Source: Prostheceraeus crozeri
Taxonomy: Eukaryota; Platyhelminthes; Polycladida; Euryleptidae
Length of the DNA: 64,000 bases
Direction of reading: 5' to 3'
Assembly: GCA_907163375.1 (NCBI GenBank)
Contig: CAJQUW010001458.1
Coordinates: forward strand, 62,001-126,000
Both the position numbers and the translations under genes were made by a program. Positions 24,562 through 63,941 of this stretch are shown piece by piece. The first letter of the stretch is position 1. Each line of letters opens with the position of its first letter. The notes beneath the pieces were generated by a model. The model ran no database searches, was not told the origin of the DNA, and worked only from the letters and a program-made list of their open reading frames with translations.

Positions 24562-24849
24562 CTTTACTGACGTAATTGACATTTCTTATGAACACAAACT
24601 TCGTTCTTTTATAAAAAGCTACAATTCGTATCGTGAACATTTCATCGCCATTACTGTTTTGCCTTGGAGGAACATTGGATTTGTATATCTTAGCTCCAGA
24701 TCCCTGCAGGGAATTCCGGTTATTAATCTTCCATGTTATCTTTGAATGTTTTGTGACATCCTCATTTGATACAGCGTTTCTCAACAAAATATTTGCATCA
24801 ATAATGTTTTTCCTGATTTTCTCTGATTTGAGTCCAAATTCAAGATTCA
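24562..24849 (-). CDS. Module d15 of the tandem array (last copy seen)
   Basis: The exon runs from acceptor TTTCAG/TG (24850) to donor AAAG/GTGAGT and covers 96 codons. The core reads I-T-W-K-I-N-N-R-N-S-L-Q-G-S-G-A-K-I. It lacks the usual N-terminal proline (N-L-E-F-G-L-K-S-E-K-I-R-K-N-I-I instead of P-x-V-x-I-x-F-N), and its last strand reads F-I-R-N-V-N-Y-V-S-K-G. It is among the more diverged copies but still unmistakable around the W and the G-x-G. The frame stays open past the donor, but that sequence has no module resemblance. Confidence 0.85.
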
Positions 24850-24951
24850 CTGAAATTTAGAAGATTACCGGTATGCATGTAAACAGTATAAAAATACTAC
24901 CTATGTCTTGACTATATTAAAGTGCATCAATATGTCAGTGTGTGGACCCAC

Positions 24952-25131
24952 GCCAATAGTCTAGTGCATTTTTATTGGTCATATACAAAATTCCTAAAGC
25001 TGTTAAGGAAAAGACCATGAATAGAGCCGGACAGAGATTGAAAAGAGGAAACAGAGTGGAAACAGCATCAACAAAAATCCATGGCTTCCCTTCTGATCGA
25101 TACTTCATGAAACATGAAATCACGTAAACCA
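24952..25131 (-). CDS. Candidate exon with transmembrane segments, gene unknown
   Basis: A 72-codon open stretch encodes two hydrophobic segments around a charged loop: V-V-Y-V-I-S-C-F-M-K-Y-R-S-E-G-K, then L-F-P-L-F-N-L-C-P-A-L-F-M and V-F-S-L-T-A-L-G-I-L-Y-M. Plausible splice sites (TTTACAAG/TG and TGGC/GTGGGT) would make it a phase 1-1 exon of 60 codons. It lies between modules d14 and d15, yet a membrane segment inside a tandem extracellular array would be strange. It may therefore belong to a different, intron-nested or displaced gene. I do not recognise the family. Confidence 0.35.
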
Positions 25132-27355
25132 CTTGTAAACTAACTATTAACATTTGTTATCTGCTAAGTATTCATTGTTACCGAAAGGGTCTGAAGGGGT
25201 CGCAGCGGGTCTACATGCACTGTACATGCAATGCAAGTAATATTGTGATATCTACAGGTTTTCCTGATAGAAAATGTTTTTTATCAAATGAAGCTATGAA
25301 CTGGTTTATGAAATTTCTGAGACTGAAGCTTTTGAAAAATGCTCTCACCGCCATGTTTTGAATCTGTCAATTTGCTTTAGGGCATATACTATATACTATA
25401 ACCAAGGCCCAGATTTTATGTAAACATGAATCTAAAAATGCACTTAATTTTTTTACATTTAAATCACACAAGAAGAAAAGAGAGTTTAACAATAGGCCTA
25501 CGCTATCGTAGCTAAATTCAACTTCGATTTCATTTGATAGGACTGCCAAATAGATGCACATTATATACTGTATATGTTATAGAAGTTTATTATTGGCATA
25601 ATGAAAAGTTACTTTAAAATGGAAGCCTTGCATTGATTTCATGTAAAAATTCTATCGCAGATTAAGCTGCAGTATTACTCAATATTAGTATGTATAAAAA
25701 TACATTACTCCATAATACTGTGATTAGCGCTATAGTTATAGGTTCCAATATGTCCATAAAAATGTCTTACTGGCGAAATTAGCAGAGCTTTAAGTGCTTT
25801 TTACGATGTGCTCAATCAGCAAAATTATCTTCACTACCTCCCGCATTGTACCACCTTGAAATAGATCGGCGCTGTAGCCTTGGTGGTGGAATGTCTGCTC
25901 TGAGTCCGGGAGACCATGGTTCAAACCATTGTTGAGTCAAACTGAAGACTTTAAAATGGCTACACTCTGCATTCTTGCAAAGTACTCAACGCAAAAAGAA
26001 TGAGAGTGGGATAAATAGCAACTCGACCGCATGGGAGAAAGGCTCTGTACGTACATGTATGTGCTCCCGAGCATAAACAAAACAGGACTTGTAAATAGAA
26101 CAATTAAATATTGAGTTGCATCCTCAGTTGAAAAATGGGAACAGACTTGAGCAGCTGCTATTTCATCCAATATCAGGAATCATCAGCAGGCCTAGTTCAC
26201 ATCTCTCAACATCGACATAACTCCTTGTTTTAAAGTTGTACCCATGGCCGTCTAAATTTGCGATTTGCAATTACTAAGTTAGTAAATTTTGACGGGCATT
26301 CATTAAATATCATTTCAAACACACTACTGACAAATCGCCTCAGTTAACGCGTCTGCAATAATAAACAGGCTCTATAAAACATGGCTTATCTACTTTATTT
26401 CATTTATTTTCATCTATCGTCAGAGCTCATCGGTGAGATTTATATGTGATGATTTATACATGAGATTTATATATTCATTATATTTCAAAATTCATCGACA
26501 GGTCATTATCAATGTCTAAGATTGTCTAGAATGTCTAGCTTGGTGTCAGTGAATTAGTGAGTTAATGTATATCTTTAACTATCGATGGATGCATCATACT
26601 CTTGAGCGAATATCATCCACCCTGTCGATGAAATGACTCTGTCAATAAAAAGATCTGACAATGAAATGTGCCTGTCGATGACGTGAACCACTATAGTGTA
26701 CGTATGTGCAATACATGGTACACTATTGAATATATATTGCATATATAAATTGCTTTTAAAATCTCTTATTTGCTTTTAGAGCTATTTCAGCTTCCTTCAC
26801 TTTGCATCTTATTTTTAATAAAAAATGTGTCTACCGGCTTCCTTACTGTCTAGTTTCTTTCTATTGCAATTACGTATGTTATCAACGCGTTCACGCGACA
26901 CTACTGCGGTACTTTGCCATTTTCATTATCAATAAAGACACTATCATTATCACTAAAAAGATGAAGTATTCTAAAAGTGAATGTTGCTTTACATAATTCA
27001 GCAATATCGATAGTAAAAATTGCAAACTATCGCTTTCAATTCTAAACATTTATTATAGCATTTTAGTGACCACATTGACTATTTCTGTGTGATATTTTTA
27101 GCGAAATCAAAAAAAGCCTATCTTCGAATGGAGGTGTCGAAGAATTAATTGCGGGGATTCTCAACTGCGTGAGTGCTTAACATTTTAGCTCCTTTTGCCT
27201 TTCGGTTAATGGTAAGGTAGTGACAAGCACGGACTTCACCCTTCTCTCTTGATCTTAATATATTGATTTTTTGTGTATATTTCGTAATGATTTATTATGA
27301 TTGATGGTGACAGCGCAAATACATTTTTTTCAAAAACTTTTATAGATATTTAGAT

Positions 27356-27416
27356 GGAGCGAGAGTGAGAGCGAGGCTGAGAGTGAGAGTGAGAGCGAGT
27401 CTGAGAGTGAGAGGAC
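27356..27416. repeat. Imperfect GAGAGT / GAGCGAGA simple repeat
   Basis: Purine-rich on the plus strand (GAGAGTGAGAGCGAG units). On the coding strand of the modular gene it is a CT-rich tract 80-140 bases downstream of the d14 donor, inside the intron. Confidence 0.8.
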
Positions 27417-27499
27417 ACTGTAAAGCATAATTACAACATCAGTGAGGCTATCCACATCAATGCCGATCGATGAATATCGACACTTGACACTTGACTCAC

Positions 27500-27799
27500 C
27501 TTGAATAATTTTGATCCGTGCCATGATTGTATAGGTTTGACCTTTGTATATCACAGTGAAAGTTATTGGTACGAATTTGTAGTCAGAACGTTTTAAGGGA
27601 ACAATACCTTCCTGAACGATGTGACATCCTTTTCCAGTAAATTTACTCTGAGACGTTAGGACTATAGTCCATGAAATTTTTGCTTCGTTTGTGATTTCTT
27701 TCATCGTGGTGGGATCATAGAATTTGATACTTGCATCAAGTTTATTATCCTTCGTCAGTAATTGACTGTTGAAACTTATGGTTACTTTTGGGTCACGAA
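27500..27799 (-). CDS. Module d14 of the tandem array
   Basis: 100 codons, with donor CAAG/GTGAGT. Two in-frame acceptors six bases apart are possible (TTTTTAG at 27806 or TTGCAG at 27800), a NAGNAG-like choice adding Val-Ala or a similar pair. The start reads D-P-K-V-T-I-S-F-N-S-Q-L-L, very close to the consensus. The W block is unusual: I-S-W-T-I-V-L-T-S-Q-S-K-F-T-G-K-G, where the asparagine pair is replaced and the loop to G-K-G is longer than in any other copy. A partial copy of this exon's beginning plus flanking intron lies at 29640-29920. Confidence 0.88.
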
Positions 27800-29015
27800 C
27801 TGCAACTAAAAAGAAACAGTCTTGAAAAAATTGCTAAAAGTACTCATGCTTGCTGGATTACCTAGCTGACCGCTTTAGCCATGTGTACAACAAGATGAAA
27901 ATAAAAAAAATAATGTATGCAGTATTATTGAATGGCATATTTTGAATGAGGTGCATGAAGAGAAATGGTGAAAACCTGTTTGGGTCGTCTACTATTATGA
28001 CTTCTTTCGAAATGTGGCCATTGCAATTTCTGAAATGTTATTCAATAAGTTCAAATATAGTTATATGTGGAATTAACCTTACTCTGCCCAAGGAAGTTAA
28101 ATTTATTTTAAATGACAATTTTTTTCTATCATATTATTCATTTAGCATTAGTAATTGTATTTAGATTGGTTAAAACTTTTGCATTGACATAGCTATCGAA
28201 CAGGCAGTTTGCACACTATAGTGTCGGTTGGGCAGTTTGGGACTATGCACACTACAGTGCGCATACTAGATAAAGAGTACTTTTAAAATGGTAACAGCAT
28301 TTGAGTGCTAAGAATTCATAAGTAAAATGAAGACATCAAACATCCAAGCAAATCATGCACAGTTTATTACATTACATGGATATTTTATGCTTATCGTATA
28401 CAATCAAAGTGACAGTCATGTTATGAATGTCTATATTGCGGAATGAAAAAATTTGAAGCAATTCTTGCCTTTCGTCACGCAAAGATGGGAAATGCACTAA
28501 TTTTTTTGTTTCAAAATATTTTAGGTACTATTAACAGACAACGATTTGAAAATCCTTATCTATGGTAATCCTTATAATACGTATTTTCAAATTTTGAAAG
28601 ATTTTCTGTCAATCTTATGCCAGTCTTTTGAATTTAAAGTTTGAACACGAGTTTAAGAAATAAATGAAAGTAATGTTTCCGATTTCTGCATGCGATTAAT
28701 TGCATGAATTTGTGCTTTATTCTTTAATATCATAATTTGAACACTACAGTGAGCAATGGGCAGAGTAAGGTTAATATTGACGATTTCAAGCAATCTGAAG
28801 TTTTCAAATGAAAGCGAAAAGGTACACAAATTACTGCTAAAGTTTCCTTCTATATAGGCTAATTATTCAATACGTGAACATTTTAGCTGCCGGTACGTAG
28901 TTTTACATTTTATATTCTCAAAGAATTATATGAGCAAATTGTCAAGAAACTGAATGAATTAAGGAGAAATGATGAATATTCTCTAGGGGTCGAAAAATGC
29001 TCTTTATTTAGGGGA
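27740..29015. repeat. Duplicated segment, copy 1 (d14 start plus intron)
   Basis: 27740-27985 aligns by eye with 29640-29920 (shared words such as CTCATGC...ATTACC, CTGACCGCTT, TTTGAATGAGGT[GA]CATGAA, GGTGAAAACCTG). 28960-29005 aligns with 30155-30215 (GAATATTCTCTAGG, GTCG[CA]). The spacing differs by about 700 bases, accounted for by the insertion at 28073-28774 in this copy. Confidence 0.65.
28073..28774. mobile_element. Inverted-repeat-bounded insertion (~700 bp), no ORF
   Basis: The ends are TTAACCTTACTCTGCCCA (28073-28090) and its exact reverse complement (28757-28774). Three subterminal copies of CACTA[CT]AGTG-like words lie near 28217, 28249 and 28741. It is missing from the related duplicated segment at 29.7-30.2 kb, which supports a discrete mobile insertion. 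The superfamily is not determined; I could not fix a target-site duplication with confidence. Confidence 0.6.
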
Positions 29016-29639
29016 TCATTAGATGTAGCTACTGCTTTGTACATGACTCTGCATAATATAACCGTTCATACAAAGGGTGACTACAACTTTTTGAGAATGT
29101 TTCAGCAAACCCATTTATTTGACGACTTTGCTATTCTCGATCATAATTATGAGACATACATGACTAAAGCTTATTATTTATCAAGACTGTGATGAAAATG
29201 ATTAATTGTTCCTTTCTTGAGCACATTCTGAAAGATCTACCAATTTAAGTTCAATCAGATAGCAAAATTAGTGTATTTCATGTAGGTTCAATAGGAAATA
29301 ATTTCTGTTAATCACACTTGTTTAATAGCCATTGACGTGAAGAAATGAGAGAAAGTGGCCTACTTTAATTGGAGATATGATTTATCCAAGGCATTTCAAA
29401 TGAAAATTTGATAAGTTCATCAGCACTGTTTGCATAATAGGATGAAAGTGGTATTTATTATATACCGGTAAAGCTGGACATAATTAAGGAATCGGCCAAT
29501 TCTGAGATGATCGACCCTAAGTCCTAGAGAATTACGGTGCGTACAAAATTCGAGAAGCTACAGTATCTGGAATTTCAGCTCATGTTGAAGGTTTCTGTTT
29601 GTTATTAATCAATCTGCAATCTGCATGTAACTGTAGATG

Positions 29640-29710
29640 AAATGAACTGATTTACGATCGTATTTTATCGAATGTTGAAACTTGTAGTGACTTTTAGGTT
29701 GCGAGCTACA
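29640..29710 (-). pseudogene. Relic of a module exon (partial copy of d14)
   Basis: On the minus strand the sequence reads V-A-R-N-L-K-V-T-T-S-F-N before running into stops. This matches the first residues of d14 (V-R-D-P-K-V-T-I-S-F-N). Upstream, the intron also matches. The rest of the exon is absent or unrecognisable, so this is a dead copy left by a partial duplication. Confidence 0.6.
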
Positions 29711-30220
29711 ACAAAAATAAACGGTCTTGCAAGATTTGCTATAGTCACTCATGCGTTCAAAATTACCAAACTGACCGCTTAATCAATGTGCCTAATACGG
29801 ATATAAAAAAATGATGACAAATTTCAGCATTTTAATTTAATTGCATCATTTGAATGAGGTACATGAAAAAATGATATTAATGGTGAAAACCTGCTTGGTT
29901 CGTTTAGTTATATGTGGTATTTATATGTACAGAAAAAATACGACTTTAAGCTACTTTAATAAGTTAAAAAAGACACAAAAATTTCCTACATAGGTATTTT
30001 TGCTTTAATTTGCTATGTATCCTAAAAAACTGTAATACGTAGCATTCATTAATCACTCAAACTTAAAGGCTGTATAGAAAGTGAATGTTTTAGTAGATGG
30101 TAATGGCGTGGCTCATAGAAGGGGCATGTTATTAAATTAGTGAAAAAGTGGATAATTCAAATAGAAATGAAGAATATTCTCTAGGATTCATATTCTCTAG
30201 AAGTCGCTGAAAAAATAATG
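29640..30220. repeat. Duplicated segment, copy 2
   Basis: Counterpart of 27740-29015 without the 700-base insertion. It ends about 45 bases before the donor side of the Kunitz exon. Confidence 0.6.
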
Positions 30221-30264
30221 CACATTTATATAAGAACTAACTGTTTATTTTTTTCCAAACGTAC

Positions 30265-30432
30265 CTTTGCCCATGCAGCGTGATTGACATGCCGACAAGG
30301 ACTCAAAATTATTTGCATTTCCACCGCAACCGCCATAGTAAAACATGCTGCATTTTTTTGTTAAGAAGTTGTAATAATATCGTGCTTTATGTCCTCTGCA
30401 TCCTCCAATAGCTCGAGTTAGATAGCATTGAC
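30265..30432 (-). CDS. Kunitz/BPTI serine protease inhibitor domain exon
   Basis: 56 codons between acceptor ATTTCAG/GT (30433) and donor AAAG/GTACG, phase 1-1 like the module exons on both sides. The cysteine spacing is C-8-C-15-C-7-C-12-C-3-C, exactly the Kunitz pattern. It contains the conserved R-Y-Y-Y-N, the F-Y-Y-G-G-C-G-G-N core and N-N-F. The residue after the second cysteine (P1 site) is Arg, followed by Gly, which in characterised Kunitz domains predicts inhibition of trypsin-like serine proteases. Within the array it sits between modules d13 and d14. It is the only Kunitz exon I found and contains no in-frame defect. Confidence 0.92.
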
Positions 30433-31940: not shown

Positions 31941-32249
31941 CCAATGTGTACATCAGCCGATACACATATGTGTATCGTTGTCCATTGTAGACGATCGTAA
32001 ACTTGATCGTCAGTGAAAATCTGCGAGTCTTTTCATTTCCGACTGGCTTCAGAATTCGTTGCCAATTGATTACACGTCCTTTTCCGCTCATTTTGTGATC
32101 ATTGTTAATTACCCATGAGATTTGGCATGATTTAGTTAGGTCCTCTCCATTTTGCTGATTTTTTATTTGAAGGGTTGCATCAACCTTGCTCATCTTTAGC
32201 AGCTTGTCCTTGTCGAGGTGGATAGAGTATAGCAAAGACACTTTTTTAA
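31941..32249 (-). CDS. Module d13 of the tandem array
   Basis: 103 codons, the longest copy. Acceptor TTTTCAG/TT (32250), donor TTGG/GTAAGC. The core reads I-S-W-V-I-N-N-D-H-K-M-S-G-K-G-R-V-I. It shares with d12 the blocks C-Q-I-S-W, K-M-S-G and the strand I-V-Y-[NQ]-G-Q-R-x-T-Y, more than with any other module. The two are adjacent, so they are probably a recent tandem duplicate. The extra residues are in the N-terminal strand region (H-L-D-K-D-K-L-L-K-M). Confidence 0.9.
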
Positions 32250-35201: not shown

Positions 35202-35498
35202 ACAATGTATACCGTTTTAGATACGTATATGTAGTTCTTTGTCCCTGGTAGACAATTGAAAAGCTGATTTTCAGGAAGTAAACACTTCTGCTTTTGACTG
35301 GGTGTATTTTATTCCATGTGATATTTGAGCCAGTTCCTGACATTTTAGGATTATCGTTGATAGTCCATGAAATTTGACATTGCTTAGTTACGGCATTTCC
35401 ATTTCTCCGATTTTTAACTTCTACGATGGCGTTAACTTCATTCATTTTCAATTTGTCCTCGTCCAAACGTATATTGTATTTGAAAGACAATTTTGGTG
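35202..35498 (-). CDS. Module d12 of the tandem array
   Basis: 99 codons. Acceptor ATTTTAG/CA (35499), donor TTGT/GTAAGT. The core reads I-S-W-T-I-N-D-N-P-K-M-S-G-T-G-S-N-I. It carries one cysteine just before the core (Q-C-Q-I-S-W), as d13 does. The N-terminal strand Y-N-I-R-L-D-E-D-K-L-K-M again matches d13. The last strand ends L-K-R-Y-T-L. Upstream the intron to d11 is the shortest in the array (about 740 bases). Confidence 0.9.
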
Positions 35499-36241: not shown

Positions 36242-36523
36242 GTATTGGAAACGTGTACTCGATAACCTTGACGAACGTTCTGCCACCATATGTAACTGTC
36301 AATTTGACACTGACAACGTATTTTCCGCCTCGCTTTATTGGATGTAGTTTCCTGATGTCAATACCCGTGCCGCATCCACTATGTTTATTATCATTGTTGA
36401 CAATCCAACAAACTTTTATCTTACTTGAAACGTCCTTTGTTCCAGTTGTAGCAATCACTGAAGCACTCACTATGAATTGTTTGAGCAATTTCTCGTTGAA
36501 TTTGATAGTTATTTTTGGTTTTG
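36242..36523 (-). CDS. Module d11 of the tandem array
   Basis: 94 codons. Acceptor ATTCCAG/CA (36524), donor ATAC/GTAAGT. It opens A-K-P-K-I-T-I-K-F-N-E-K-L-L, a near-consensus start. The core is V-C-W-I-V-N-N-D-N-K-H-S-G-C-G-T-G-I, with two cysteines not shared by other modules (before the Trp and between the glycines) that could pair or be free. The downstream strand K-Y-V-V-S-V-K-L-T-V-T-Y-G-G-R-T-F is close to d8. Confidence 0.9.
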
Positions 36524-37748: not shown

Positions 37749-38042
37749 CAATGCTATATCTGATTGTGAAAATCCTCTTTGGGAAGGTTACGCCATTGTA
37801 AGTCACTTTGTAGGATATGTGGAGTATATAGCTACTGCCTCTTTTTATTGATTTGATTTTCCTTGGACCGATAGTAAGACTGGTTCCACTTAAACTGTTT
37901 TCATTATTAATCTTCCAAAACACCTTGATATGTTTGGTGATGTCAACTTTTGAATGAGGTCCAGCAGTGGCCGTTATCACTGCACTTATTATGCTTTGGT
38001 GAATTAAACTGTTCTTGAATCGAATTCTGACACTTGGTTCGC
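37749..38042 (-). CDS. Module d10 of the tandem array
   Basis: 98 codons. Acceptor TTGCAG/GC (38043), donor ATTG/GTGAGT. It opens E-P-S-V-R-I-R-F-K-N-S-L-I. The core reads V-F-W-K-I-N-N-E-N-S-L-S-G-T-S-L-T-I, where the second glycine of G-x-G is serine, as in d8. No cysteines. It ends F-T-I-R-Y-S-I-G. The intron upstream contains direct-repeat-like CACATGTCCG / GACATGTCCG patches near 38250 and 38835. Confidence 0.9.
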
Positions 38043-39653: not shown

Positions 39654-39935
39654 GTATTGAATATGTTTTCCGTATGGTTTTTGTGAAAGTCTTGCCAAAG
39701 CCGGCTACTCTGATTGTCGCAATGACAACGAAATGATTGCCACTTGGAATAGGCTTGAACGATGAAGATTTGATAGTTAAGCCGCTGCCCCTGATATGAT
39801 TGTTTATCACCCAAGTAACTGATTTAGCTCTTGTCGTCACGTCCTTTCCCCGAGCTGAGAGGAGTTTGATTGCTCCGTTGATTATATTCTGATTCAATAG
39901 AGCCTGATTAAACGATATGAAAACCTTTGGAAGAT
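39654..39935 (-). CDS. Module d9 of the tandem array
   Basis: 94 codons. Acceptor ATTTCAG/AT (39936), donor ATAC/GTAAGC. It opens L-P-K-V-F-I-S-F-N-Q-A-L-L-N-Q-N-I-I-N-G and has the core V-T-W-V-I-N-N-H-I-R-G-S-G-L-T-I with a loop two residues shorter than in most copies. That short R-G-[ST]-G-L-x-I loop, the K-S-F-K-P-[IV]-P block and G-F/A-F-G-K are shared with d5, four modules away, more than with its neighbours. No cysteines. Confidence 0.9.
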
Positions 39936-41944: not shown

Positions 41945-42229
41945 TCATCGGGTATTTGTATTCGATGGTTTTGGTGAATGTTATACCGGCGAACGTCACT
42001 CTAATAAAAACACTAACTACATATTTGCCGTTCTTTATGAATGGAGTTATTTTCCTATTATTGATAGACAAACTGTGTCCCGTCAGGCGTGGATTATTGT
42101 TGATCTTCCATTCCACTTTCACTTTTCTTGAAATATCCACATTTGATCCGCCCTTTGTCAGGATTGTTGCCTTGATTATGTTTCGCTTGAGGAGATCTTT
42201 GTTAAATCTGATGCTTATCTGAGGTCTTC
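41945..42229 (-). CDS. Module d8 of the tandem array
   Basis: 95 codons. Acceptor TTTTCAG/GA (42230), donor ATGA/GTAAGT. It opens R-P-Q-I-S-I-R-F-N-K-D-L-L-K-R-N-I-I-K-A and has the core V-E-W-K-I-N-N-N-P-R-L-T-G-H-S-L-S-I. The strand R-V-T-F-A-G-I-T-F is shared with d7 (R-V-T-F-A-G-I-N-F), its upstream neighbour. No cysteines. It is close to the consensus throughout and a good query for fold prediction. Confidence 0.9.
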
Positions 42230-43441: not shown

Positions 43442-43444
43442 TTC

Positions 43445-43723: not shown

Positions 43724-44014
43724 TGATGATGTAGAAATGTTTTATGGTCCTGTAGAAATTGATTCCGGCAAAAGTCACTCTCACAGAGACCTTGATGTAA
43801 TATGTGTCCCTTTTTCCTGCTGCTTTAATTGGACGGAATTTTCCGAGATTGATAGCAGAAGTGTACCCGATGCATGTGTGGTCGTCGTTGATGATCCATC
43901 TGTATCTCACATTTCTGACATGCTTCACATTATTGCCGATAATCCTTATCACAGCTTTAATCCGGTTATTTTGCAATAAGTTGCCGACGAAAGAAATAGA
44001 AACTCGTGGTTTAA
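43724..44014 (-). CDS. Module d7 of the tandem array
   Basis: 97 codons. Acceptor TTTGCAG/TT (44015), donor ATCA/GTAAGT. It opens K-P-R-V-S-I-S-F-V-G-N-L-L. The core reads Y-R-W-I-I-N-D-D-H-T-C-I-G-Y-T-S-A-I. The usual [ST]-G before the strand is I-G, and a lone cysteine sits in the loop. It ends H-F-Y-I-I-S. The second half is very close to d8. Confidence 0.88.
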
Positions 44015-45419: not shown

Positions 45420-45713
45420 TGACAGTATAAGTGTAACTGATTGTCTTTGTCGGGTAAGTAATTCCTCTATATTTCAATATTACGGAAATTGAGATAGTAT
45501 ATCTGTTGACTCCTTGCTTTCTAGGAGCAAATCCTGCAGCATTGATGTTGAAGCCTGTTCCTGTCAATTTTGGATTATTGTTTACAAACCATCGTATTGT
45601 TGCTCCACACGTCTTTGAAATTCTAATTCCACCTATGGTAGACACTATTGCAACTCTTATGATGTTACTTTGTAATAATCCTTTATTGACTTGCAGTCTA
45701 AATACAGGTGCAC
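45420..45713 (-). CDS. Module d6 of the tandem array
   Basis: 98 codons. Acceptor GTTTCAG/GT (45714), donor GTCA/GTAAGT. It opens A-P-V-F-R-L-Q-V-N-K-G-L-L-Q-S-N-I-I. The core is I-R-W-F-V-N-N-N-P-K-L-T-G-T-G-F-N-I, among the most typical in the set. A single cysteine lies in the loop before the core (K-T-C-G-A-T). The last strand is Y-T-Y-T-V-S. Confidence 0.9.
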
Positions 45714-50242: not shown

Positions 50243-50527
50243 TTATGGTGTATGTTCGCCTCTTGAATACTTCAATCCTTTTTCCAAAAGCTCTTCCTTG
50301 AATGCGTATGGTAATTTGATAAAGGTTTCTTCCAATAGGGACAGGTTTAAATGATTTTGGTTTGATAACTAAACCAGTACCTCTAGTGCGACCATTAATT
50401 GTCCATCTAATTGAGGTAAGTTTAGAACTGATGTCCTGTCCGGAAGCAGTAAGAACTCTGACAGTAGCACTGATAATGTTTTGACGCAATAGGCCCATGT
50501 TGAATGCGACAAAAATCCTGGGAGGTG
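50243..50527 (-). CDS. Module d5 of the tandem array
   Basis: 95 codons. Acceptor ATTTCAG/CA (50528), donor ATAA/GTAAGT. It opens P-P-R-I-F-V-A-F-N-M-G-L-L-R-Q-N-I-I-S-A. The core is I-R-W-T-I-N-G-R-T-R-G-T-G-L-V-I, with the short loop seen otherwise only in d9 and d2. No cysteines. The following 4.5-kb intron is the longest in the array and contains the candidate plus-strand exons. Confidence 0.9.
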
Positions 50528-51418: not shown

Positions 51419-52843
51419 CAGTAGTGGCCAATTTAAAGGGCCCACATCACTTTTCATGCATTTTCCCACTTATACTTCATTAAATTTACTGTTATTCAAC
51501 TTCTTATTGCCAAAATATTTAGAAATTAATTCCATATGATGAAAGACAAAGCAAATATGATATCCAGTCATAATTGGTATTGAAGACAACAATGCATGTC
51601 AATACTTAACGGGGAAACCTTTTCTTGATGACACTTTGTAGTCTACGTGGCATGCTCCGCACCAGAGTCTTGCAGTACTCTTCTGTGATCTCCTGCGTCC
51701 AGACACGCTTGATTATCTCGCGCAGTTCCTTTTCTGAAGATGGTTGATGTGCGGCGACCTTCTGCTTCATGAGAACCCAACAATTTTCGATGACATTGAG
51801 GTCCGGTGAGTTGGGAGGCCAGTTGGGCAGCAGAGCGACATCGTGTTCATTAAACTCTGCTTGACAACTTTCGCGGTATGACAAGGCGCTGAATCCTGCT
51901 GAAATATTGTTGTTTCACTGATCTCCATATGAAGGAGCACCTTCTCTTCGAGGATTTGGAGGTAGCGACTTGCGTTGACTTTCTCTCCTTTACAGAACAG
52001 CTCCAAGCCGCATCGTCCACGGGAAGTGATCTCCATATCATCACTGATGGCGGATGCTTCACCGTCTTCTGTGTGAAATGCGGGTTGAAGCGCTGACCAA
52101 TCCTACGGCGGACGTAACCCAAGCCACCACAGCGGACTTGCTGAAAGGTGCTCTCGTCTGAGAACATGACACGATCCCACCACTCGGCATCCTTATCCAG
52201 ACGATCGCGACAGAATTTCAGGCGCAATCTTCGCTGCTCCTCAGTAATCAAGGGTACTTTCGCAGGCCTACGAGCCACAAGTCCAAAATCATTTTTAAGC
52301 CTTCTGTGGATTTTCCTCGCACTTAGCTCCACTCCAGCAATATCATTGATTTCTTTGGATAGTTTTAGTGATGAAGATCGATGGTTCCGGGTGATGAGGA
52401 CTTTAAGAACTCGGTCCTGTCGTTTAGTACTTTTTCGGAGTCTTCCGCATGCGGAACGCTCGGAGTCTGGAGATGAGATTGCTTTTCTAACTGCTTTCCT
52501 GGAAACCTTGAGACGTTCAGCAATTGCTCTTTGAGAATATCCCTCATTGTACAGCGCAATCATCTGACCACGCATCAGCTGCGAGGTGTCACTCGATCTT
52601 CGAACCAATGCCATAGGTACTCGATGGATGACCTGAAAGCTATTGTTTTCCTTCGTAATTGTCCGTGCCGCAACGAAGTCAGCTAGATAACTTTCACCCG
52701 GAACAACATCACACGCTAAAAGCATCAAACTATCAAGTTTTTCATCATTAAATCATTCATTTAAGATCTGACAGGCGACATAAAGCAAATAGTATAAATT
52801 ATCTATATCCGCGTGAGTGGGCCCTTTAAATTGGCCACTACTG
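51419..52843 (-). mobile_element. Tc1/mariner-like element B, complete ends
   Basis: 27-base perfect inverted terminal repeats (start CAGTAGTGGCCAATTTAAAG, 51419-51445 and 52817-52843) flanked by TA on both sides (51417-51418, 52844-52845). Length is 1425 bases, typical of the group. The single transposase gene runs on the minus strand and is frameshifted. The identical ends against a broken gene suggest a young insertion of an already defective copy, mobilised in trans. Confidence 0.92.
51603..52615 (-). pseudogene. Tc1-like transposase with frameshifts (element B)
   Basis: Starting at M-A-L-V-R-R (52615), the N-terminal helix-turn-helix (Y-S-Q-R-A-I-A-E-R-L-K-V-S) and second DNA-binding half (S-A-R-K-I-H-R-R-L) are intact. 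The first catalytic block M-F-S-D-E-S-T-F is present near 52160. The frame shifts near 52030, after S-V-M-I-W, and again near 51860. The remaining blocks F-Q-Q-D-S-A-P-C-H-T-A-K and S-P-D-L-N-V-I-E-N-C-W are intact in their own frames, so all three catalytic acids survive. The last residues end K-K-R-F-P-R. Only the frameshifts prevent function. Confidence 0.85.
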
Positions 52844-53175: not shown

Positions 53176-53469
53176 GCATCGCATATTTGTATTCAAATGG
53201 CAGATTATAGAAAATTGATTGATACGTAAATGCAATATGTCCGTGTATAAGGAGCATATTTCCTTGACGAATAGCCGTCACTTTTCTGATGGAGATTTTC
53301 GACCCTCGACCATTGTAGATACGTCTAGCGTTTACTGACCATCGAAGATTACGTAATTGATGTCCTTCAATATATCTCCCGGTATTGGGATTCATAATTC
53401 TTATGGTTGCAGAGCAAGTACCAGACATCAGCAGGGCTTTGTTAAAAGCAACACGGACAAGCGGTTTTG
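53176..53469 (-). CDS. Module d4 of the tandem array
   Basis: 98 codons. Acceptor TTTTTCAG/CA (53470), donor ATGC/GTGAGT. It opens K-P-L-V-R-V-A-F-N-K-A-L-L. The core reads L-R-W-S-V-N-A-R-R-I-Y-N-G-R-G-S-K-I, with N-A in place of N-N and N-G before the strand. A polar insert (N-P-N-T-G-R-Y-I-E-G-H) precedes the core. It ends Y-K-Y-A-M. One cysteine sits near the start. Three perfect palindromes lie 90-260 bases upstream in the intron. Confidence 0.88.
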
Positions 53470-53560
53470 CTGAAAAAGATAAATAGTCATAATTACACAA
53501 GATACATCATCAACAGAAGAATAAAGACGTTCAGACTTTCGACTGACCTTTTCACCGCTA

Positions 53561-53730
53561 ATGACGGAAGCTTCCGTCATAATTCTGTCACTTGCCATGC
53601 TGATGCATTTTCTCTAATAAGCGATTGACGGAAGCTTCCGTCATTCAATATGATCTTTTGCTTGCGAAGGAAACATCATATTTTGAATTGGTCACTGTGA
53701 GTGACGCGCAATGACGGAAGCTTCCGTCAT
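53561..53730. repeat. Three spaced copies of a perfect palindrome
   Basis: ATGACGGAAGCTTCCGTCAT occurs in full at 53561-53580 and 53711-53730, and its inner 18 bases at 53626-53643. Spacing between starts is about 64 and 86 bases and the intervening sequences are unrelated. Each contains a TGACG half-site and a GGAAGCTTCC centre (back-to-back GGAA cores, also GAANNTTC). It is in the intron just upstream of d4. A binding array, a hairpin set or an element remnant are all possible. Confidence 0.8.
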
Positions 53731-53949
53731 GATATGAGAAGATTCCTACATACTTTTTTTGAAACCCGCGTATGAAGCCATCGACTGTGTGTGATGCAAA
53801 TGATATCATATGCATCGCATACATCAGGTTCTCCGCTTTCTAACGATATAAGTTTTCTGCAAATCGATGAGAGAATTTAAACTGTAGATATCATAAAGAG
53901 CTTGTCACATTTCACATGGAATTGCATTATTCGATAAACTATAGATATA

Positions 53950-54745
53950 CGTGCGTATGTACACAGGTTCGTCATTACAATTGCTTCTAACGAATTTGAT
54001 GATGACTGACACTGATAATTCCTCCACTGATCTGCAGTACGATGAAAATGCTGATCTCTTAGAAGAAGTAAACTTTGAAAATCTCCCATGGACGGAGGTC
54101 ACCTCCAACGACTCATTCAGACAAATCGACCAAACATTTTATGGCATACACGGCGTTCATCCTTGTTATCAGACTATTGAAATGAATGATGAAATTTCAT
54201 TTTTCAACATCATGTTCCCGGACGATTTATTCGAAGACTTGGCGAAATTCACAAACATTCGGGCCCGCATTTCCATCGAAACTAATGAGAACGTGGCTCC
54301 ACATTCCCGAATCAAAAATTGGAAAGATGTAACTCCAGATGAGATGCGAAAGTTTCTTGGTTGTGTATTTCTAATGGGAACTATTAAGAAACCGTTTATT
54401 GAGTCATACTGGTCGACGGAGGAAATGATTGCGACACCTTTCTTTTTTAATAAAGTCTGTCTTTCTCGAGATCGTTTCCAAATAATTCTTCGATTTCTTC
54501 GGTTCACCGATTATGACCGACTTGACACAAATGATCCGCTTCATAAGTCATCGGATTTTATTGCAAAGACAAAATGCATCATTCAAAATAGCTACATACC
54601 AACCGAAAATGTTGCTATTGACGAAGTGCTTCTCCTTTTCAAAGGTCGCTTATAGTTTCGGAATTTTATACAATGAACTAGCTCAGAGCTTCAAATTTTT
54701 AAAACTTCGAAGTTTCCTGGATGGACTGTAAGTCTCATTTCAGCG
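53950..54745 (+). pseudogene. piggyBac-type transposase, N-terminal half
   Basis: The open frame to 54655 shows the DDE_Tnp_1_7 (piggyBac/PGBD) pattern: an acidic start, then F-G-like segments, W-K-D-V-T-P-D-E-M-R-K-F-L-G, S-Y-W-S-T, L-S-R-D-R-F-Q-I-I-L-R-F-L-R-F and N-V-A-I-D-E-V-L-L-L-F-K-G-R. That last block holds the first catalytic aspartate. After the stop, another frame continues with F-R-N-F-I-Q and about 25 more residues of the expected downstream motif. The catalytic second and third Asp and the Cys-rich tail are missing. Likely start is M-M-T-D-T-D (53999). Confidence 0.8.
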
Positions 54746-55860: not shown

Positions 55861-55894
<34 letters not shown>

Positions 55895-56902: not shown

Positions 56903-57196
56903 CAATCACAAATGTTTTTGAAATAGTTGTTTTGTAGAAGATGTTGTTATAACGGTACTGAACTTCCACACTGAATGAACATCGAGTCCCTACACAACGA
57001 GGTGCAAAACTAGCGACATTTATGGCACATCCATAGCCGCTGAGAGTGCGAGCACCTATAATTCTCCAATGAAGTCCAGCTATACTTCTGGAAGCAATAA
57101 TTTGTTGTGTGATCTGATTTTTGAAATATATGATAGCTGAAATTCTTCTGCGCAACAACATTGATCGGTTGAAGACGATCCAGACATACGGAGGTT
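56903..57196 (-). CDS. Module d3 of the tandem array
   Basis: 98 codons. Acceptor TGTTTCAG/AA (57197), donor ATTG/GTAAGT. It opens P-P-Y-V-W-I-V-F-N-R-S-M-L. The core is L-H-W-R-I-I-G-A-R-T-L-S-G-Y-G-C-A-I, without the N-N. It carries three cysteines (after the second Gly and in P-R-C-V-G-T-R-C), the most of any copy, so a private disulfide is possible. The last strands read Y-R-Y-N-N-I-F-Y-K-T-T and T-F-V-I-G. Confidence 0.87.
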
Positions 57197-57640: not shown

Positions 57641-58128
57641 AGCTTCGTTCAACGTGTACTCTTCAAATGACCTTCAACATACTGCAGTATCTCTTATATA
57701 ATTGCATGCATTCAATATTTCGCGAGATATAGTCATTAGTCATAAAATCTGCCAAAAGTGAGATCTAGAATTTCTTTCAAAATGCTATTTATGATAACAA
57801 AGCCAATTAAAACTGCAAAATTGTGGCCGATAATCCTAAGGGGCAGAATATCAGTCGAATTTCAAAAATTTGCTAATTTCATTATCAGACACTGATGTTG
57901 AGATGCAAAATGAAGTAAAATGATAGGTTCAAGATCCTTATTAAATTATGGATTGGCAACGACCTTGCAATCTCACGCTTAGGTATTTTTCGAGTCGGTT
58001 GTTTTCATTTAATTAATGACTAATGTTCACTGTGCTGGTGTCCACATGTAATGCATCTACTGTATACCAATGATAATTAGCAACCAGTCAGATAATTTCA
58101 TTGATTCTAGGAGGAACTTGTTGTTATA

Positions 58129-59461
58129 CAGTCCGTTTCATAAAAAGTGGATCATCCTAAAATTTGACTAAATAAAACATAAGTATGATACAGAAAGCAT
58201 TTTTCATGTTATTTCATGTCCCTAATATATTTAAATGTCCTAACATAATTTGATAAGCTATGATACAGTAATATTTTGTGGCCCTACCCTTATTGTCAAT
58301 GACATTACCAATTCATCTAGGCATTGATTCGATGATATCGTTGATTTTTGACTGATCTAACTTTCTCCACTCTCTTTTTAACAGTGACGTAAGTTTGTGA
58401 TACGCCATCTGTAGGTAGCAGTGAACGACGAACGTTACGTTTTAGAATACTCCAACATTTTCTATGGGATTCAGATCAGGAGAACGAGCTGGCCAATATA
58501 ATGTCCTAAGCCCTAATTGAGACTTGCATAAGTTGACTCTACTACTCCTGTGACACGTAGCATTATCATCCATAAATAACCAAGTCGATGGATCACCAAG
58601 TTGATGTGTCATTTGGCCAATGTTTATTCGTAAAACATTCACATAGCGTTCAGAATTCATGGTTCCTTGCTGTATGTGAAGTCTTCTACGAATAGTGGAC
58701 TTAGAAATAGACGAGTATAGTGCAGCCATCTCAGTTAACGAGAGACTTGGATCAACTTTAACAAATCTCAAAATTAGGCGGTCTATACGTTTGGATGTTT
58801 TGCGTGGACGGCCAGAGCCCTCTTTACGACAGAGTCGAAAATCATCATTATGCCATCGATGCACATTTGTGTAAGGGACATTTAGTCGCTTGCTTGTAGC
58901 TCGCAAAGAAAACCCTGACACTTTGCCTTTTGTGAATGCGATCTCGTTATTGTTCATTTGTGCTTTGTATTGTTTTCAACCGGTAAGAGATAGATTTCAA
59001 GCTGAAAGCAAACAGGAGTGCTGCCAACACCACCGCAACGAAGTCAGGAAGCTATGGAACATGAAGTCCAGTTAATCACATGTAGCAGTTACATTATTGT
59101 TGATGCATAATAGTGCTATACTGGCTCTGATCGACCGATTTTCTTTATTTTTGTTTTGCTTGATAGCTTTTGGCTTGTAGAACAACATATTACATAACAA
59201 AGGAAACAAATGTAATTTTATAAGAGTGAGGTATGATTTTGTGTAACATTGCTAAATGAAGATCAAATTATCTACTACTTTTTTTATCTATAACAGGAAA
59301 ACAACTCAATATTCATGCTTGAAATTTCCAACAATGATATAAATAAGCACAACTAACATATCTTCCAAATTTCAGAGAAATTCGTTCAAGTTTGGCGGAG
59401 TTAGACAAAATTGAAGTTAAGGCGATGTTTAAGGGTGATCCATTTTTTATGAAACAATCGT
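58129..59461 (-). mobile_element. Tc1/mariner-like element C, internally deleted
   Basis: The inverted ends share GTTTCATAAAAA[GA]TGGATCA[TC]CCT (left 58129-58158, right about 59431-59461; the outermost six bases differ). TA flanks both ends (58127-58128 and 59462-59463). The interior is a shortened transposase gene on the minus strand. Confidence 0.8.
58270..58957 (-). pseudogene. Tc1-like transposase with in-frame central deletion (element C)
   Basis: The open frame 58957-58442 (171 residues) has the N-terminal helix-turn-helix (F-S-L-R-A-T-S-K-R-L-N-V) and G-R-P-R-K-T hinge, then jumps from R-R-R-L-H straight to G-T-M-N-S-E-R-Y. About 130-150 residues present in full-length relatives are missing, including the first catalytic Asp block, without loss of frame. 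It continues with M-D-D-N-A-T-C-H and S-P-D-L-N-P-I-E-N-V. A further frame below 58442 carries the C-terminal E-W-R-K-L-D-Q and I-I-E-S-M-P-R. It would bind DNA but could not catalyse transposition. Confidence 0.8.
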
Positions 59462-59739
59462 TACTTAGCTATTAAAGTTTTGTTCTTCGCTCTTCGCTTG
59501 TCATGCTGACGCTTCTTCAATCTTTCACTACTGTCCGCCGCTGACGAAGATCGGTGACCGAGAGAAAGCTTCGGAAACATGTATTTTAAAGTTAAAAAAA
59601 CGAGGTTTTTTATTAGCTCTTCTTACCTTGAGACGATTTTTTTTACAATGACAAATCTTGTTCATTCTTACAGTGACTACGAAATAGATACGGTTCAGGC
59701 GAGCGCAGTGGAGCTATGTAAATCAAATGATAAACTTAC

Positions 59740-60018
59740 TCATGATATACGTCTTGGTGTATGTCCGCGTAAATGTCTGACCGTGGTAGAATATTGTTGC
59801 TACGATTGAAAAGCGATATGAGCTGCCTCCAGTATGCTTCAATGCACTGTTTTTGATATTGATCACAGCTCCCTTTCCACGCAGTTTGTCGTTTATCATC
59901 CATCTTATTCTTGATTTACCTGTCACGATGCTTCTGCCACTTTTTACTAAAATCCTCAAACTTATGAAATTTTTTATCAATAGGGCTTCATTCAGAAAGA
60001 ACAATATCCGTACTGGTC
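59740..60018 (-). CDS. Module d2 of the tandem array
   Basis: 93 codons, with donor ATGA/GTAAGT. The acceptor is TTGCAG/GA (60019); an alternative in-frame acceptor nine bases upstream (CCACAG/GT, start 60027) would add three residues. It opens P-V-R-I-L-F-F-L-N-E-A-L-L and has the core I-R-W-M-I-N-D-K-L-R-G-K-G-A-V-I. The strand F-Y-H-G-Q-T-F-T-R-T-Y is typical. No cysteines. Confidence 0.9.
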
Positions 60019-60700
60019 CTGCAAAACCTGTGGAATACAAGGCTAGTTCAATTTTAAGCTTTTAAAAGTTATCATTATGAGTTTAAGTCTTCATGATAAG
60101 AAATGTGTTAAGTAGACAATGGTTTTGGAATCGGAATGTGTACTCTGACCTAGTAATGTATTCTAGTTAGTTTTGGCCTTCACGAAGTCGAATAGATATT
60201 TCAATGTACCTAGCTGCCAGCAGCACCATGAAAAATGGCTTGCCAGCTGCAGGGAATCGATCTTAGTCCTATAAATGCTTGTGCGACACGAATATCACCA
60301 ATGCCAGCGAAGCAAGCTCCTAGCGATCGCACCAGGAACATCACAGCTTTGCGCACGCACTGTTAAACAATCTTCCTTGTTTTTTGCTATTGCTTAAAAG
60401 AAGCAACTTGATGATATGCAACTGCTCCGATTTCAGTGAGTGGCTAAATTTCATTTCTATTGACTGCCATTGATTTAGAATACCCAGTCGGAACACGGAT
60501 GAAAACCTGCGAAGTTTGGTTTAAATAAACATAATCGCTCTGTCGCTCGGTCGCACTACCGTCAATTGCGTTTCACTTGTCGCGGTCACAATGTCGGCGG
60601 TCACAATTGTGACGAGTCATTTATTCATTGATTATACACTGTAATTGCTATGATGTGTGGTGGTGAGGGTTTAATCCTGTCAATTGACACAGTCGCATAA

Positions 60701-60774
60701 GTGGCTCGTAGCTCAGTTGGTACAACACAGGCCTAGTTAACCTTGGTCGTAGGTTCGAATCCTGTCAGCCGCAC
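60701..60774 (+). tRNA. tRNA-like sequence / tRNA pseudogene (possible SINE head)
   Basis: 74 bases with a good internal A box (TAGCTCAGTTGG) and B box (GGTTCGAATCC), a perfect T-arm (GTAGG-TTCGAAT-CCTGT) and an acceptor stem with six of seven pairs. The D stem is broken and the anticodon stem is short and shifted, so I cannot assign an anticodon. Six T residues (60776-60781) follow directly, a pol III terminator. A degenerate tRNA or tRNA-derived element is more likely than a working tRNA. Confidence 0.6.
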
Positions 60775-61649
60775 ATTTTTTGCATGGCAATTTGATCTAT
60801 CGTTTATTTAATTTAATTCTGTTGTTAATTGCTGTATTTCTTCCCCACCGTCACTACAAGGTAAAGCAGCCGTGAAGAGCTTTTCTGTAATTTCCATAAG
60901 ATCACTGCATAGCTTCTTCTTGGGTACCAGAGAGAAACCAAATAGCATTGTATAGGGTGCCAGACAATGATAATCCTCCCTTCCAGAAAAGCTTAATTCA
61001 GAAAAAAGGACACATTTTCTTTAGCATCGAAAGAATGAAAATTGCTGAGAATTGAAACAAGCCATTGAGTTCACGGAAAAGATCATAATCCAAACCAATT
61101 CCCTTCTTCGCAGCTTAGTAGTATACTTCAACAGTGCTTTTATTGGCATCACGAACTGTTTGACTTTAAGTTTTCCCAAGTCGCCTTTGGACTTTTTTGC
61201 TGTGAGCAGTTTTTCTTTCTGCGGCATGATCCGTGCATGGGAATGTTCTTTAGCGCCATTCACACTAACATTCATAGATATCAAAAATTCAAATCTTCGA
61301 AAGAGTTCCCAGTCTTGCTAATACCGGCACTCTAACACTCGTCTGACTCGAACGAGGTAAATTATTGACGCATGCAGCTCAAGCACTACGTGAGTTTTTA
61401 ATTGACGGTTAAGTTAATCCGTTAGATAGACAAAAAACGAAGAATACTTCAAAATCATGTCACTTTTTGTAAATGTATGTGGCACATCATTTGCATGGGA
61501 ATGGGCAATCAACCACTATTTTGCTAGCACCCTTTAGAATGCACTGATTGAAATAAAGAGCTGTTATTAGCATGTTTTATTCCATTTTGGGGAACCGCCT
61601 ATAATTTCAGGGCCATTAACGTCAACGACATGATTCTACAACTCCACAA

Positions 61650-61755
61650 GCTGTGCCACCTCAGACCGTAGCATGCCCCGTCTTTTACCGCGTCAGCATG
61701 TTCCTTGTGCCGTTCCTCCCTAAGACGACTGGTTTCGCCAACATACATGTAGTTT
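61650..61755 (-). mobile_element. GIY-YIG endonuclease scrap of a Penelope-like element
   Basis: Minus-strand frame reads M-Y-V-G-E-T-S-R-L-R-E-E-R-H-K-E-H-A-D-A-V-K-D, the second half of a GIY-YIG motif (Y-x-G-E-T-x-R, then K-E-H). Only about 35 residues are recognisable. Confidence 0.55.
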
Positions 61756-62241
61756 CAATCGTACCCTTCCTCACTGCATCATATCTGCCACACCGATCCG
61801 AGGACTGTTGCTGGCTCAGATCTTCTTCTCACAAAAAGAAAAATTATTGATGCAGGGGTCGCATTGACACAGTGACATCCATCTCTCCAAGTACGGGAGA
61901 GTGAAGCACATTGAACATGTTTTTCAACTCTTCTCGACAGCTTGAACCTACTAAATCAAATGAACCAAATTCAAACTCGGATGAAAGGTTGAGGGCATGC
62001 TAAGTAATCTCTAAGTTGTTAGACGTTCCTGTGACATTTCATCTCCTTGAATTTCAAAATTTTTACAAAAGTGGTTTAATGTGTCCTATTCGTGAGTCAC
62101 ATTGAACCACCTTTTTGTATATTGATTTCTTGTTGAACTTTAATAGACTTAATGTATCAGATCTACAGCTTCAGTTAATAAATTGTCAAAATCAAAGAGC
62201 TTAATTCAGTTTGAGATTTTTATTGGCAAAAATGATGGTAT

Positions 62242-62580
62242 ATGCTTGATATGAATAAATACATGCAAACTTCTGTAAGAAAATGTTCGTTAACTATCAG
62301 AGTTCTCAGATTAGCACTATTCATGATAGAGAGCCTTGGTAAAAGTATTAATGCTAAATTGATACACAATGTTAATTACATGTATCATTGTGATCATCAA
62401 TTAAAGCGTGCCTGTATGCATTGCGCATTACATGTAGATGTGCAAGACACGAGTAGGCCTAAGAAAAAAGCTCTTGAGAACTTTATGAAAGTGTTTCCGC
62501 ATACTTATCCGGGATTACATCTGCTGAATTGTCCTTGGTCACTCCGAATGTGCAGGGTGTGCCCCAGTGAGTACATATAA
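62242..62580 (+). CDS. Unassigned open frame (112 residues)
   Basis: Uninterrupted for 113 codons on the strand opposite the modular gene, in the d1-d2 intron. The C-terminal third (K-K-A-L-E-N-F-M-K-V-F-P-H-T-Y-P-G, then four cysteines) looks more protein-like than the rest. No family recognised, no splice or promoter support. It may be a transposon scrap. Confidence 0.2.
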   Translation: MLDMNKYMQTSVRKCSLTIRVLRLALFMIESLGKSINAKLIHNVNYMYHCDHQLKRACMHCALHVDVQDTSRPKKKALENFMKVFPHTYPGLHLLNCPWSLRMCRVCPSEYI

Positions 62581-63662
62581 CTGGCCTAACTTTTTAAGCC
62601 TTTCAGTATGCAATAATAAACAAACAAAATCCGTATCTAATACTATCTAAATCTGTAATAAAAAATCATTTGTCACTGTCATGATGGCCATCACTGAGCT
62701 GAAAAGTCCATCTGCGATGATGACAACAGCAACATGCACTATAAAGCAAATACGACGCCTATTTCGGGAGGAAGAGACGTGGTTCACTCAGTAAAAACAC
62801 TTTTTCCAGAAATCGGACATCGCGATAGATAATTGGTGACACTTTAAACCGGTTGACCAATCAGGGAAATGGATTGAGGAAAATATCACGACGGAGCGAC
62901 GAAGCGATGTCATTGGAAATCAGACGTAGTGCGATCTTCGCGCTACAGATGGTGACAAAATGGATTTTGTATTTATGATGACATAATCCGAATTCTTAGT
63001 TACGTTATTGCAAGCGTGCAGCAGTTATCAAGGGATAAAAAAGGGATGGTAATAAGGCTTCGAGATAATGAATCACCTAGATTAATTAACAACACTGTCA
63101 AACAAAGACTTTGTTAATCTGGATTTTTCATATGATTTTATGCAATTTAAATGTCCTGATGTCGAATGTAATGCTGATTTTCTCATTCCAGCGATTTTAA
63201 CAATTATATGGAATTGCAAACATTTTTACATTATAAAGGATGACTGAGTTTGTAATAACTGATACGGCCATTAGAACGAGCATGCGTCAATTGTGTTTTA
63301 TAATTGGGAGCTTCTGCCGATTTAATCAGAGAAACATCAAAATCAGAAGGCGAGCTCCTGCGGGTTTTCGGAGCTCAATATTGCTAGGGTAAACCAGAGT
63401 TAAAGTTGACAATAATGAATTAATAAACTAATTTTACAAATAAAATAGAAATAATGAATATTGAGAGATTTTAAAACAAATTAATTTCGATATAATTTCC
63501 TCATAATAAACTAATTTTAAGGGATGTTTGAGTCGCCTAAACTTTTAATTAGTGCAATGACAGCAGCGTAAAGGTATTTGAGCCAAATGACATAACAGTC
63601 TTTAACGTTTTGGGTGTGCGTACCTGTAAAGCAACCCTAGTATAGATGCAGTTTACACTTAC

Positions 63663-63941
63663 AAGTGAATCCTTTCTGATATATATTTGTGATGGTTTTG
63701 AAGCCATTCGTTGCAGTAACACGTAGTCGTATCACACGTTTACCATTAACCGTAATAGGACTGACATTGTTCAGTCTTATATAAGCGCCTTTTCCTTGTC
63801 TTTGTCCTCCATTAAACTTCCAAAAGTAGAGCCACATCCCTGGCACGTGTCTGATGTTAACAATAGAGAGAGTCGCATAGAATTTTCGCTGCGCGAAGAG
63901 TTTTGTCGCAACTGCTATTTTGAGGATTGGATTGGGTTGAG
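63663..63941 (-). CDS. Module d1 of the tandem array (first copy in the window)
   Basis: 93 codons. Acceptor ATTTTCAG/CT (63942), donor ACTT/GTAAGT. It opens Q-P-N-P-I-L-K-I-A-V-A-T-K-L. The core is L-Y-F-W-K-F-N-G-G-Q-R-Q-G-K-G-A-Y-I, a variant with F-N-G-G in place of I-N-N. It ends Y-Q-K-G-F-T. The acceptor is phase 1, so at least one more exon lies beyond 64000. It is the most diverged module, consistent with an edge position or another subfamily. Confidence 0.82.

Follow-up and report, generated by a model that had tools for sequence, protein, structure and literature searches.

The region studied here is a 64,000-nucleotide stretch (the window) of the polyclad flatworm Prostheceraeus crozeri, positions 62001-126000 of contig CAJQUW010001458.1 (C1178 below) in assembly GCA_907163375.1. 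The full assembly analyzed comprises 2,048,925,868 bases in 14,165 contigs. Fifteen minus-strand exons of the window, between positions 24562 and 63941, encode the same module of about 95 residues. A model that read only the letters of the window (the original prediction) had described them as an array of an unrecognized module in a giant gene that also carries a Kunitz inhibitor. The gene was modeled from DNA alone, with 50 kb upstream of the window also read. The resulting model has 20 exons running from C1178:138393 down to 85030 (window position 23030), a span of about 53 kb. From its start, it contains a signal-peptide-like exon, a two-exon C-type lectin domain, modules d1 to d13, a Kunitz domain, modules d14 and d15, and a cysteine-containing tail that ends in a stop codon. 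The first three exons lie upstream of the window, and the terminal exon lies inside it. The features are listed below in window coordinates unless C1178 is named. All modules were recognized by profile, and each is supported by its splice sites, which for d10 were read by eye.

C1178:135013-135247 and 129692-129828, minus strand: C-type lectin domain in two exons (PF00059)
63663-63941, minus strand: module d1, exon 4 of the gene model, joined in frame to the upstream lectin exon
59740-60027, minus strand: module d2
56903-57196, minus strand: module d3
53176-53469, minus strand: module d4
50243-50527, minus strand: module d5
45420-45713, minus strand: module d6
43724-44014, minus strand: module d7
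41945-42229, minus strand: module d8
39654-39935, minus strand: module d9
37749-38042, minus strand: module d10, boundaries read from the sequence by eye
36242-36523, minus strand: module d11
35202-35498, minus strand: module d12
31941-32249, minus strand: module d13
30265-30432, minus strand: Kunitz/BPTI domain exon (PF00014), with six cysteines and splice sites
27500-27799, minus strand: module d14
24562-24849, minus strand: module d15
23030-23280, minus strand: terminal exon, an 82-residue basic tail with two cysteines and the stop, with a phase-1 acceptor placed by eye and open to the stop
22734-22739, minus strand: AATAAA, a likely poly(A) signal by its match to the consensus (matches at 22739 and 22636)

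The array of 15 modules is real and intact. All 15 exons were found at their predicted positions. The length of each is divisible by three, and each begins and ends in phase 1 and stands between AG and GT; splice sites were tabulated for the 14 modules other than d10. The modules are 92-102 whole residues long, or 93-103 when the split codon is counted, which is the length that had been predicted. Profiles built from 14 modules recovered the held-out module in all 15 trials at E-values of 4.2e-7 or better. The weakest was d1 (E 4.2e-7), while d12 was recovered at E 2.3e-26 and d8 ranked above a match of E 6e-27. Among frames that are not modules, none in the window did better than E 0.37 in these trials, and the module profile found nothing below E 1.1 among the window's frames beyond the 15 modules. 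No further modules were found in the next 50 kb upstream, where the best E was 0.81. Joined from d1 to the terminal exon, the exons give 1592 codons with one final stop, and no split codon forms a stop. The low pairwise similarity that had been described was also seen: mean identity is 25% over the 105 module pairs, and only the W, one G, and one I are invariant across all 15. Identity at codon positions 1, 2, and 3 is 0.45, 0.48, and 0.32, so third positions are the least conserved. Each module has 0 to 3 cysteines, and 7 of the 15 have none.

Two further observations concern the array. A degenerate copy of 27761-27999, which covers the end of an intron and the first ~39 nt of d14, lies at 29667-29914 on the minus strand (71% over 252 nt) and is best read as the relic of a partial duplication of the d14 exon. 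Just upstream of d4, the palindrome TGACGGAAGCTTCCGTCA was seen by eye in three copies within 180 bases, at about 53560-53735.

All 20 exons join with matching phases into one open frame from Met to stop. The predicted protein has 1743 amino acids and a mass of 199 kDa, and we consider this anatomy very probably right. In line with what had been proposed, the DNA-based model gives one large protein of secreted type that carries a Kunitz domain; its 1743 residues contrast with the span of about 53 kb of the gene. The lectin domain matches PF00059 at E 1.1e-13 (52.2 bits against a cut-off of 22.6) over model positions 2-106 of 107, and its second exon ends in phase 1. By eye, the joined lectin sequence contains REPND and GGWNDYRC, which we take to match the EPN and WND sugar/Ca2+ motifs of C-type lectin domains. 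Its matches in the PDB are headed by the yolk-sac IgY receptor, a mosquito C-type lectin, and mannose receptors. A query made of the signal-peptide-like exon plus the lectin domain matched 31 places in the genome at E≤0.01, and 4 of these are this gene or its duplicated first exon. The Kunitz exon matches PF00014 at E 2.1e-17 (63.5 bits against a cut-off of 21) and 121 PDB sequences at E≤0.001, with Arg at what we take, from an alignment by eye, to be the P1 place. The terminal exon gave no Pfam match above cut-off.

The first exon was sought in about 40 kb upstream as a Met followed by a hydrophobic stretch and then a phase-1 donor. The only peptide of this kind was MKLLLLFVCILEIQNLVDGFLFFRRR, which we call signal-peptide-like from its hydropathy. 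It was found twice, at 138393 and 141450 of C1178, as two copies of one duplicated exon. The two copies belong to a 3058-bp tandem duplication (C1178:137091-143205, 99.97% identical) that bears TATAAAA and the signal-peptide-like exon, and that either arose very recently or reflects an error of assembly. Scanning blindly for splice sites upstream also gave 13 candidate phase 1-1 exons; of the 4 non-overlapping ones listed, none could be placed in the gene. Past residue 30, no 19-residue segment of the protein starts that reaches a mean hydropathy of 1.6, so no internal transmembrane-like stretch was found.

The predicted protein is extremely basic, with an isoelectric point (pI) of 10.67 and 159 K plus 138 R (297) against 36 D plus 36 E (72). 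Every one of the 15 modules has a net charge of +7 to +16, about +225 in all. The original prediction had not remarked on the charge, and the lectin domain and signal-peptide-like exon lay beyond the stretch that it was given.

By sequence comparison, the same module is present in several other loci of the genome, which the original prediction could not see. Only the best candidates are scored in the genome searches, and all counts of relatives are therefore lower bounds. With d8 as query, 13 places reached E≤1; 12 of them belong to this gene, and the other lies on C8050. The consensus found 23 places at E≤10, of which 15 are the modules of this gene and 8 lie elsewhere. For seven of these 8, the best frame of the locus matched the window-module profile with an E-value no higher than 8.9e-8; the remaining one, C12408:176812, was dropped as weak (E 0.0035 and 0.0099) and lies in what looks by eye like a transposon-type frame. 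A module of a second gene on C1178, used as query, found 36 places at E≤1: 6 on C1178 (one of them d1), 19 on C10973, 7 on C10859, 3 on C11161, and 1 on C987. Besides d1, 14 of the 36 were read and all 14 were supported by profile, while the remaining 21, including that on C987, stood outside the profile test. Because the modules of C10859 and C11161 are so similar to those of C10973 that they may represent alternative copies of it, they are not counted separately. This leaves five or more other loci, namely C10973, C8050, C10228, the second C1178 gene, and C6494, which is represented by a fragment (about 50 residues). In a profile-profile comparison, the window modules matched the C10973/C1178 subfamily at E 1.3e-16, which makes the family link sound. 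Neither the viral contigs, searched with d8, nor the plasmids, searched with the consensus, gave a relative.

Two of the related arrays are strikingly regular. Four module exons from C1178:183474 to 194694 (region to 194963) have an exact 3740-bp spacing and are 94-100% identical to the query. From C10973:51385 to 60030 (region to 60233), eight equal-scoring module places, one of which was read, follow each other at exactly 1235 bp. Both arrays look recent, as if they were growing, or being homogenized, now. Outside this gene and C10228, a best-site scan gave phase 1-1 boundaries at 14 of the 17 module places that were read; of the three exceptions, one is the C6494 fragment and the other two had an acceptor picked within the exon. 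The net charge of 18 module sequences from other loci ranges from -2 to +12 (C10973, +1 to +8; second C1178 gene, +4; C10228, -2 to +11; C6494 fragment, 0; C8050, +12).

Lectin-like sequence lies near the modules at three of these loci. On C10228:266001-276000 (locus L046), positions 5350-10000 of the plus strand contain an open frame of 571 residues that encodes five or more modules and, close to its beginning, a signal-like peptide. Further module sequence follows in an overlapping frame, together with a lectin domain (PF00059, E 5e-12). On C8050, stretches with a weak likeness to lectins (tblastn E 0.068 and 0.011) lie downstream of the module and on its strand, and the first of them (E 0.068) has no Pfam lectin match. 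On the plus strand of C1178, at about 157-168 kb (157383-167605), there are lectin-like exons, three at E 6e-8 or better and one at 0.029, upstream of the second module gene (183474-198564, plus strand). Together, these exons and modules may form another gene built in the same way and lying head to head with that of the window. The association of module and lectin thus appears to recur, although it is we who infer that lectin-like exons and modules share transcripts.

We next turn to what the module is. The original prediction had assigned it to no common family and suggested comparing module profiles with Pfam. When 28 module sequences and the consensus were compared with Pfam one by one, no match reached the curated cut-off, and the best was PKD_4 at E 0.0051 (17.3 bits, cut-off 27). 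NCBIfam (best E 0.029), PDB sequences searched by profile (best E 0.31), and PHROGs, a library without cut-offs (best E 0.0071), gave no significant match to the module either. The proposed beta-type alternation of hydrophobic residues was seen, since its observed power was reached by only 21 of 2000 column shuffles of the 15 modules and by 47 of 2000 for 33 sequences. In 29 aligned module rows, W is present in 28 and N three places further on in 25. Given the sub-threshold similarity of one relative to PKD domains (below), the module is likely a distant beta-sandwich of the immunoglobulin (Ig)-like/PKD-like kind, and possibly a new domain family. The claim that the domain is undescribed holds to the extent that none of the searched libraries recognizes it, but this does not establish a new fold.

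Another explanation is that the module belongs, despite strong divergence, to the known PKD (polycystin-type) family, in which case the domain itself would not be new. We regard this as a serious alternative, though one that we lean against. The PKD core is of the W-x-F-G-D-G type, followed by a G-x-Y-x-V-x-[LV] strand, and the polycystin architecture couples a C-type lectin domain to a long array, as is the case here. Known PKD arrays of the polycystin-1 type (PF00801, PF18911) also resemble the modules in length, in the Trp followed by a small polar turn, and in beta alternation. The best library matches of the paralogue at C1178:194694 were PKD_4 (E 0.0051), PKD (E 0.025), and polycystin TIGR00864 (E 0.039), and d8 matched PKD_5 at E 0.17, but every library match is under its curated cut-off. 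Comparison profiles were built from 82 PKD sequences, 11 Ig I-set domains, and 10 FN3 domains. With the PKD profile, C1178:194694 ranked first at E 8.7e-4, above all decoys (best decoy 0.055), whereas the window modules scored among the decoys. With hhalign, the C10973/C1178 subfamily aligned to PKD at P 0.012 (FN3 0.11, I-set 0.17), setting W-E-L-N-D-G against W-D-F-G-D-G. However, P was 0.16 for the window's 15 modules (I-set 0.14, FN3 0.39), 0.16 for 33 modules, and 0.047 for an earlier set of 29, which in the same round gave 0.15 with I-set and 0.26 with FN3. The controls gave P 0.018 for PKD against I-set and 8.4e-4 for FN3 against I-set, so a P of 0.012 does not discriminate among such folds.

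The architecture also differs from polycystins. Here no module passes a PKD cut-off (PF00801, PF18911, PF19406), and each module occupies one phase 1-1 exon. The polycystin-1 family has a transmembrane region and GPS and PLAT domains; hydropathy showed no transmembrane stretch here, and the frame ends after a short tail. Modular proteins built from Ig I-set and FN3 domains share the tandem beta-type modules of about 95 residues in phase 1-1 exons, the phase rule known for Ig and FN3 modules. In contrast, the modules lack the cysteine pair conserved in strands B and F of Ig I-set domains, and they scored among decoys with both the I-set and FN3 profiles. Secreted multidomain proteins of the Kunitz/BPTI type have the canonical domain with six cysteines in common with this gene, where, however, a single Kunitz domain stands between modules 13 and 14 of an array.

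As to function, we tentatively propose, by analogy, that the gene encodes a secreted adhesive or mucus/matrix protein of the flatworm. Each module would be a small beta-sandwich without disulphides, broadly Ig-like or PKD-like, which would make the array a semi-rigid rod. Because every module is strongly basic, this rod would bind polyanions such as acidic mucopolysaccharides, the glycocalyx, or charged surfaces. The lectin head, with its EPN and WND motifs, would bind sugars in a Ca2+-dependent manner, and the Kunitz domain would shield the secretion from trypsin-like proteases. Taken together, the anatomy and a polycationic, sugar-binding, protease-protected adhesive or mucus-matrix protein make the best explanation we have, and we judge it to be evenly poised between right and wrong.

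The analogy comes from the adhesion proteins of flatworms, described for Theama mediterranea (ap1 to ap3) and for Macrostomum and Minona (ap1 and ap2) in PMC9229212. There, the proteins are large and secreted and have no transmembrane domain. Tmed-ap1 has a lectin domain and a pI of 6.28, and Tmed-ap2 is basic, repetitive, and Lys-rich (22.5% Lys), with a pI of 10.47 and a trypsin-inhibitor-like domain. The pI of 10.67 found here compares with 10.47 for ap2 and 13.24 for ap3 of T. mediterranea. Heparin is also reported to abolish attachment (PMC9229212). The protein predicted here is likewise large, basic, repetitive, and apparently of secreted type. In the adhesion proteins, by contrast, the repeats either run to 330 and 230 residues or consist of low-complexity GRK(HS) sequence (PMC9229212). 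Those of the present gene are 95-residue modules that look folded, each in an exon of its own, and its inhibitor belongs to the Kunitz type. The likeness is one of composition and would point to a similar function rather than to demonstrated homology.

Several points weigh against the adhesive proposal and the reading of the locus as a whole. The adhesive role draws on composition and analogy. The flatworm adhesion proteins carry vWD, C8, EGF, TSP-1, or TIL domains as well as other repeats (PMC9229212), and none of these domains is listed in the Pfam scans of the module, Kunitz, tail, and lectin exons. Most relatives are less basic, so strong polycation behavior would be a trait of this gene and not of the family. 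The introns in the window average 2.3 kb, shorter than the mean of 5.3 kb given for P. crozieri in PMC9469890. Finally, three close-copy pairs, none from this gene, have 8 synonymous differences in 183 sites and 18 nonsynonymous differences in 663. The earlier claim that selection keeps the exons is made likely by intact frames and free third positions, but this substitution test did not settle it.

The same parts could serve other roles. One is humoral or mucosal defence, in which the lectin head and polycationic array would bind and agglutinate microbes and the Kunitz domain would block microbial proteases. This would suit the leading PDB matches of the lectin domain, the strong positive charge, and the 31 places in the genome that match the signal-plus-lectin query. 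However, arrays in typical invertebrate immune lectins are much shorter than this one, and we think a defence role unlikely. We find it just as unlikely that the gene encodes a structural protein of the extracellular matrix, egg capsule, or reproductive tract, in which the modules would act as spacers while cross-contacts were made by the Kunitz and lectin domains. The arrays of this family lengthen by exact tandem duplication, as those of structural proteins do, and the modular secreted-type architecture with its cysteine-containing tail would also fit, but no collagen, EGF, laminin, or vWF-type domain is listed in the Pfam scans of the exons, and a passive spacer would not be expected to carry so high a charge. 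Far less probable is that the exons are not one gene, but belong to two or more transcripts or a decaying locus. Transposon-like frames lie in the introns, as seen by eye, and the relic of the d14 intron-exon junction would be in keeping with decay; against this stand the single open frame through all 20 exons, the 15 intact modules, and the least conserved third codon positions.

Other features of the window and genome were recorded. A sigma-type glutathione S-transferase lies in two minus-strand exons at 6962-7237 and 9618-10115 (GST_N, E 2.3e-9; GST_C_3, E 2.1e-12); its best PDB matches are Na-GST-2, GST-3, and sigma/28 kDa GSTs. At C6227:15936-17282 (minus strand) is COX1 with 8 TGA codons on a 100,701-bp contig, and this is mitochondrial sequence either assembled into, or inserted in, a longer contig. 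The residues expected in the conserved core of COX1 are obtained when AAA is read as Asn, as in the flatworm/echinoderm code. Rfam and tRNA scans of the window found nothing. Frames that we take by eye to be hAT-, piggyBac-, Tc1/mariner-, and Penelope-like lie at 10670-12598 (plus), 53945-54655 (plus), 51606-52752 and 58442-58975 (minus), 4872-5917 (plus), and 944-1944 (minus), and some sit in introns of the array gene. PiggyBac elements are reported as abundant in P. crozieri in PMC9469890, which also gives a guanine plus cytosine content of 37.64%; the window has 34-40% in 4-kb steps.

Among the papers listed on Kunitz domains, lectins, and polyclad or flatworm adhesion, none concerned this protein or module by its title or the start of its abstract, and the words "lectin" and "Kunitz" have 0 occurrences in the main text of the larval cell atlas of P. 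crozieri (PMC10396302). On the sequence evidence, this is a lectin-Kunitz gene with a module absent from the searched libraries, and its predicted product belongs with the modular secreted proteins of animals. A bolder and rather doubtful idea is that the module represents an undescribed beta-sandwich family confined to polyclads or flatworms, whose modules, multiplied by exon duplication, number in the dozens and are spread over several genes. Joined to domains of the lectin and Kunitz types, and with its charge tuned, it would make up an unknown class of adhesive or mucus proteins, with the polycationic gene as a surface-binding or cohesive member. If confirmed, the family would add a recurrent extracellular module that curated libraries lack. 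It would also provide a test case for how arrays grow, in which relatives repeated at exact periods of 1235 bp and 3740 bp can be set against the 15 old and divergent modules of the window.

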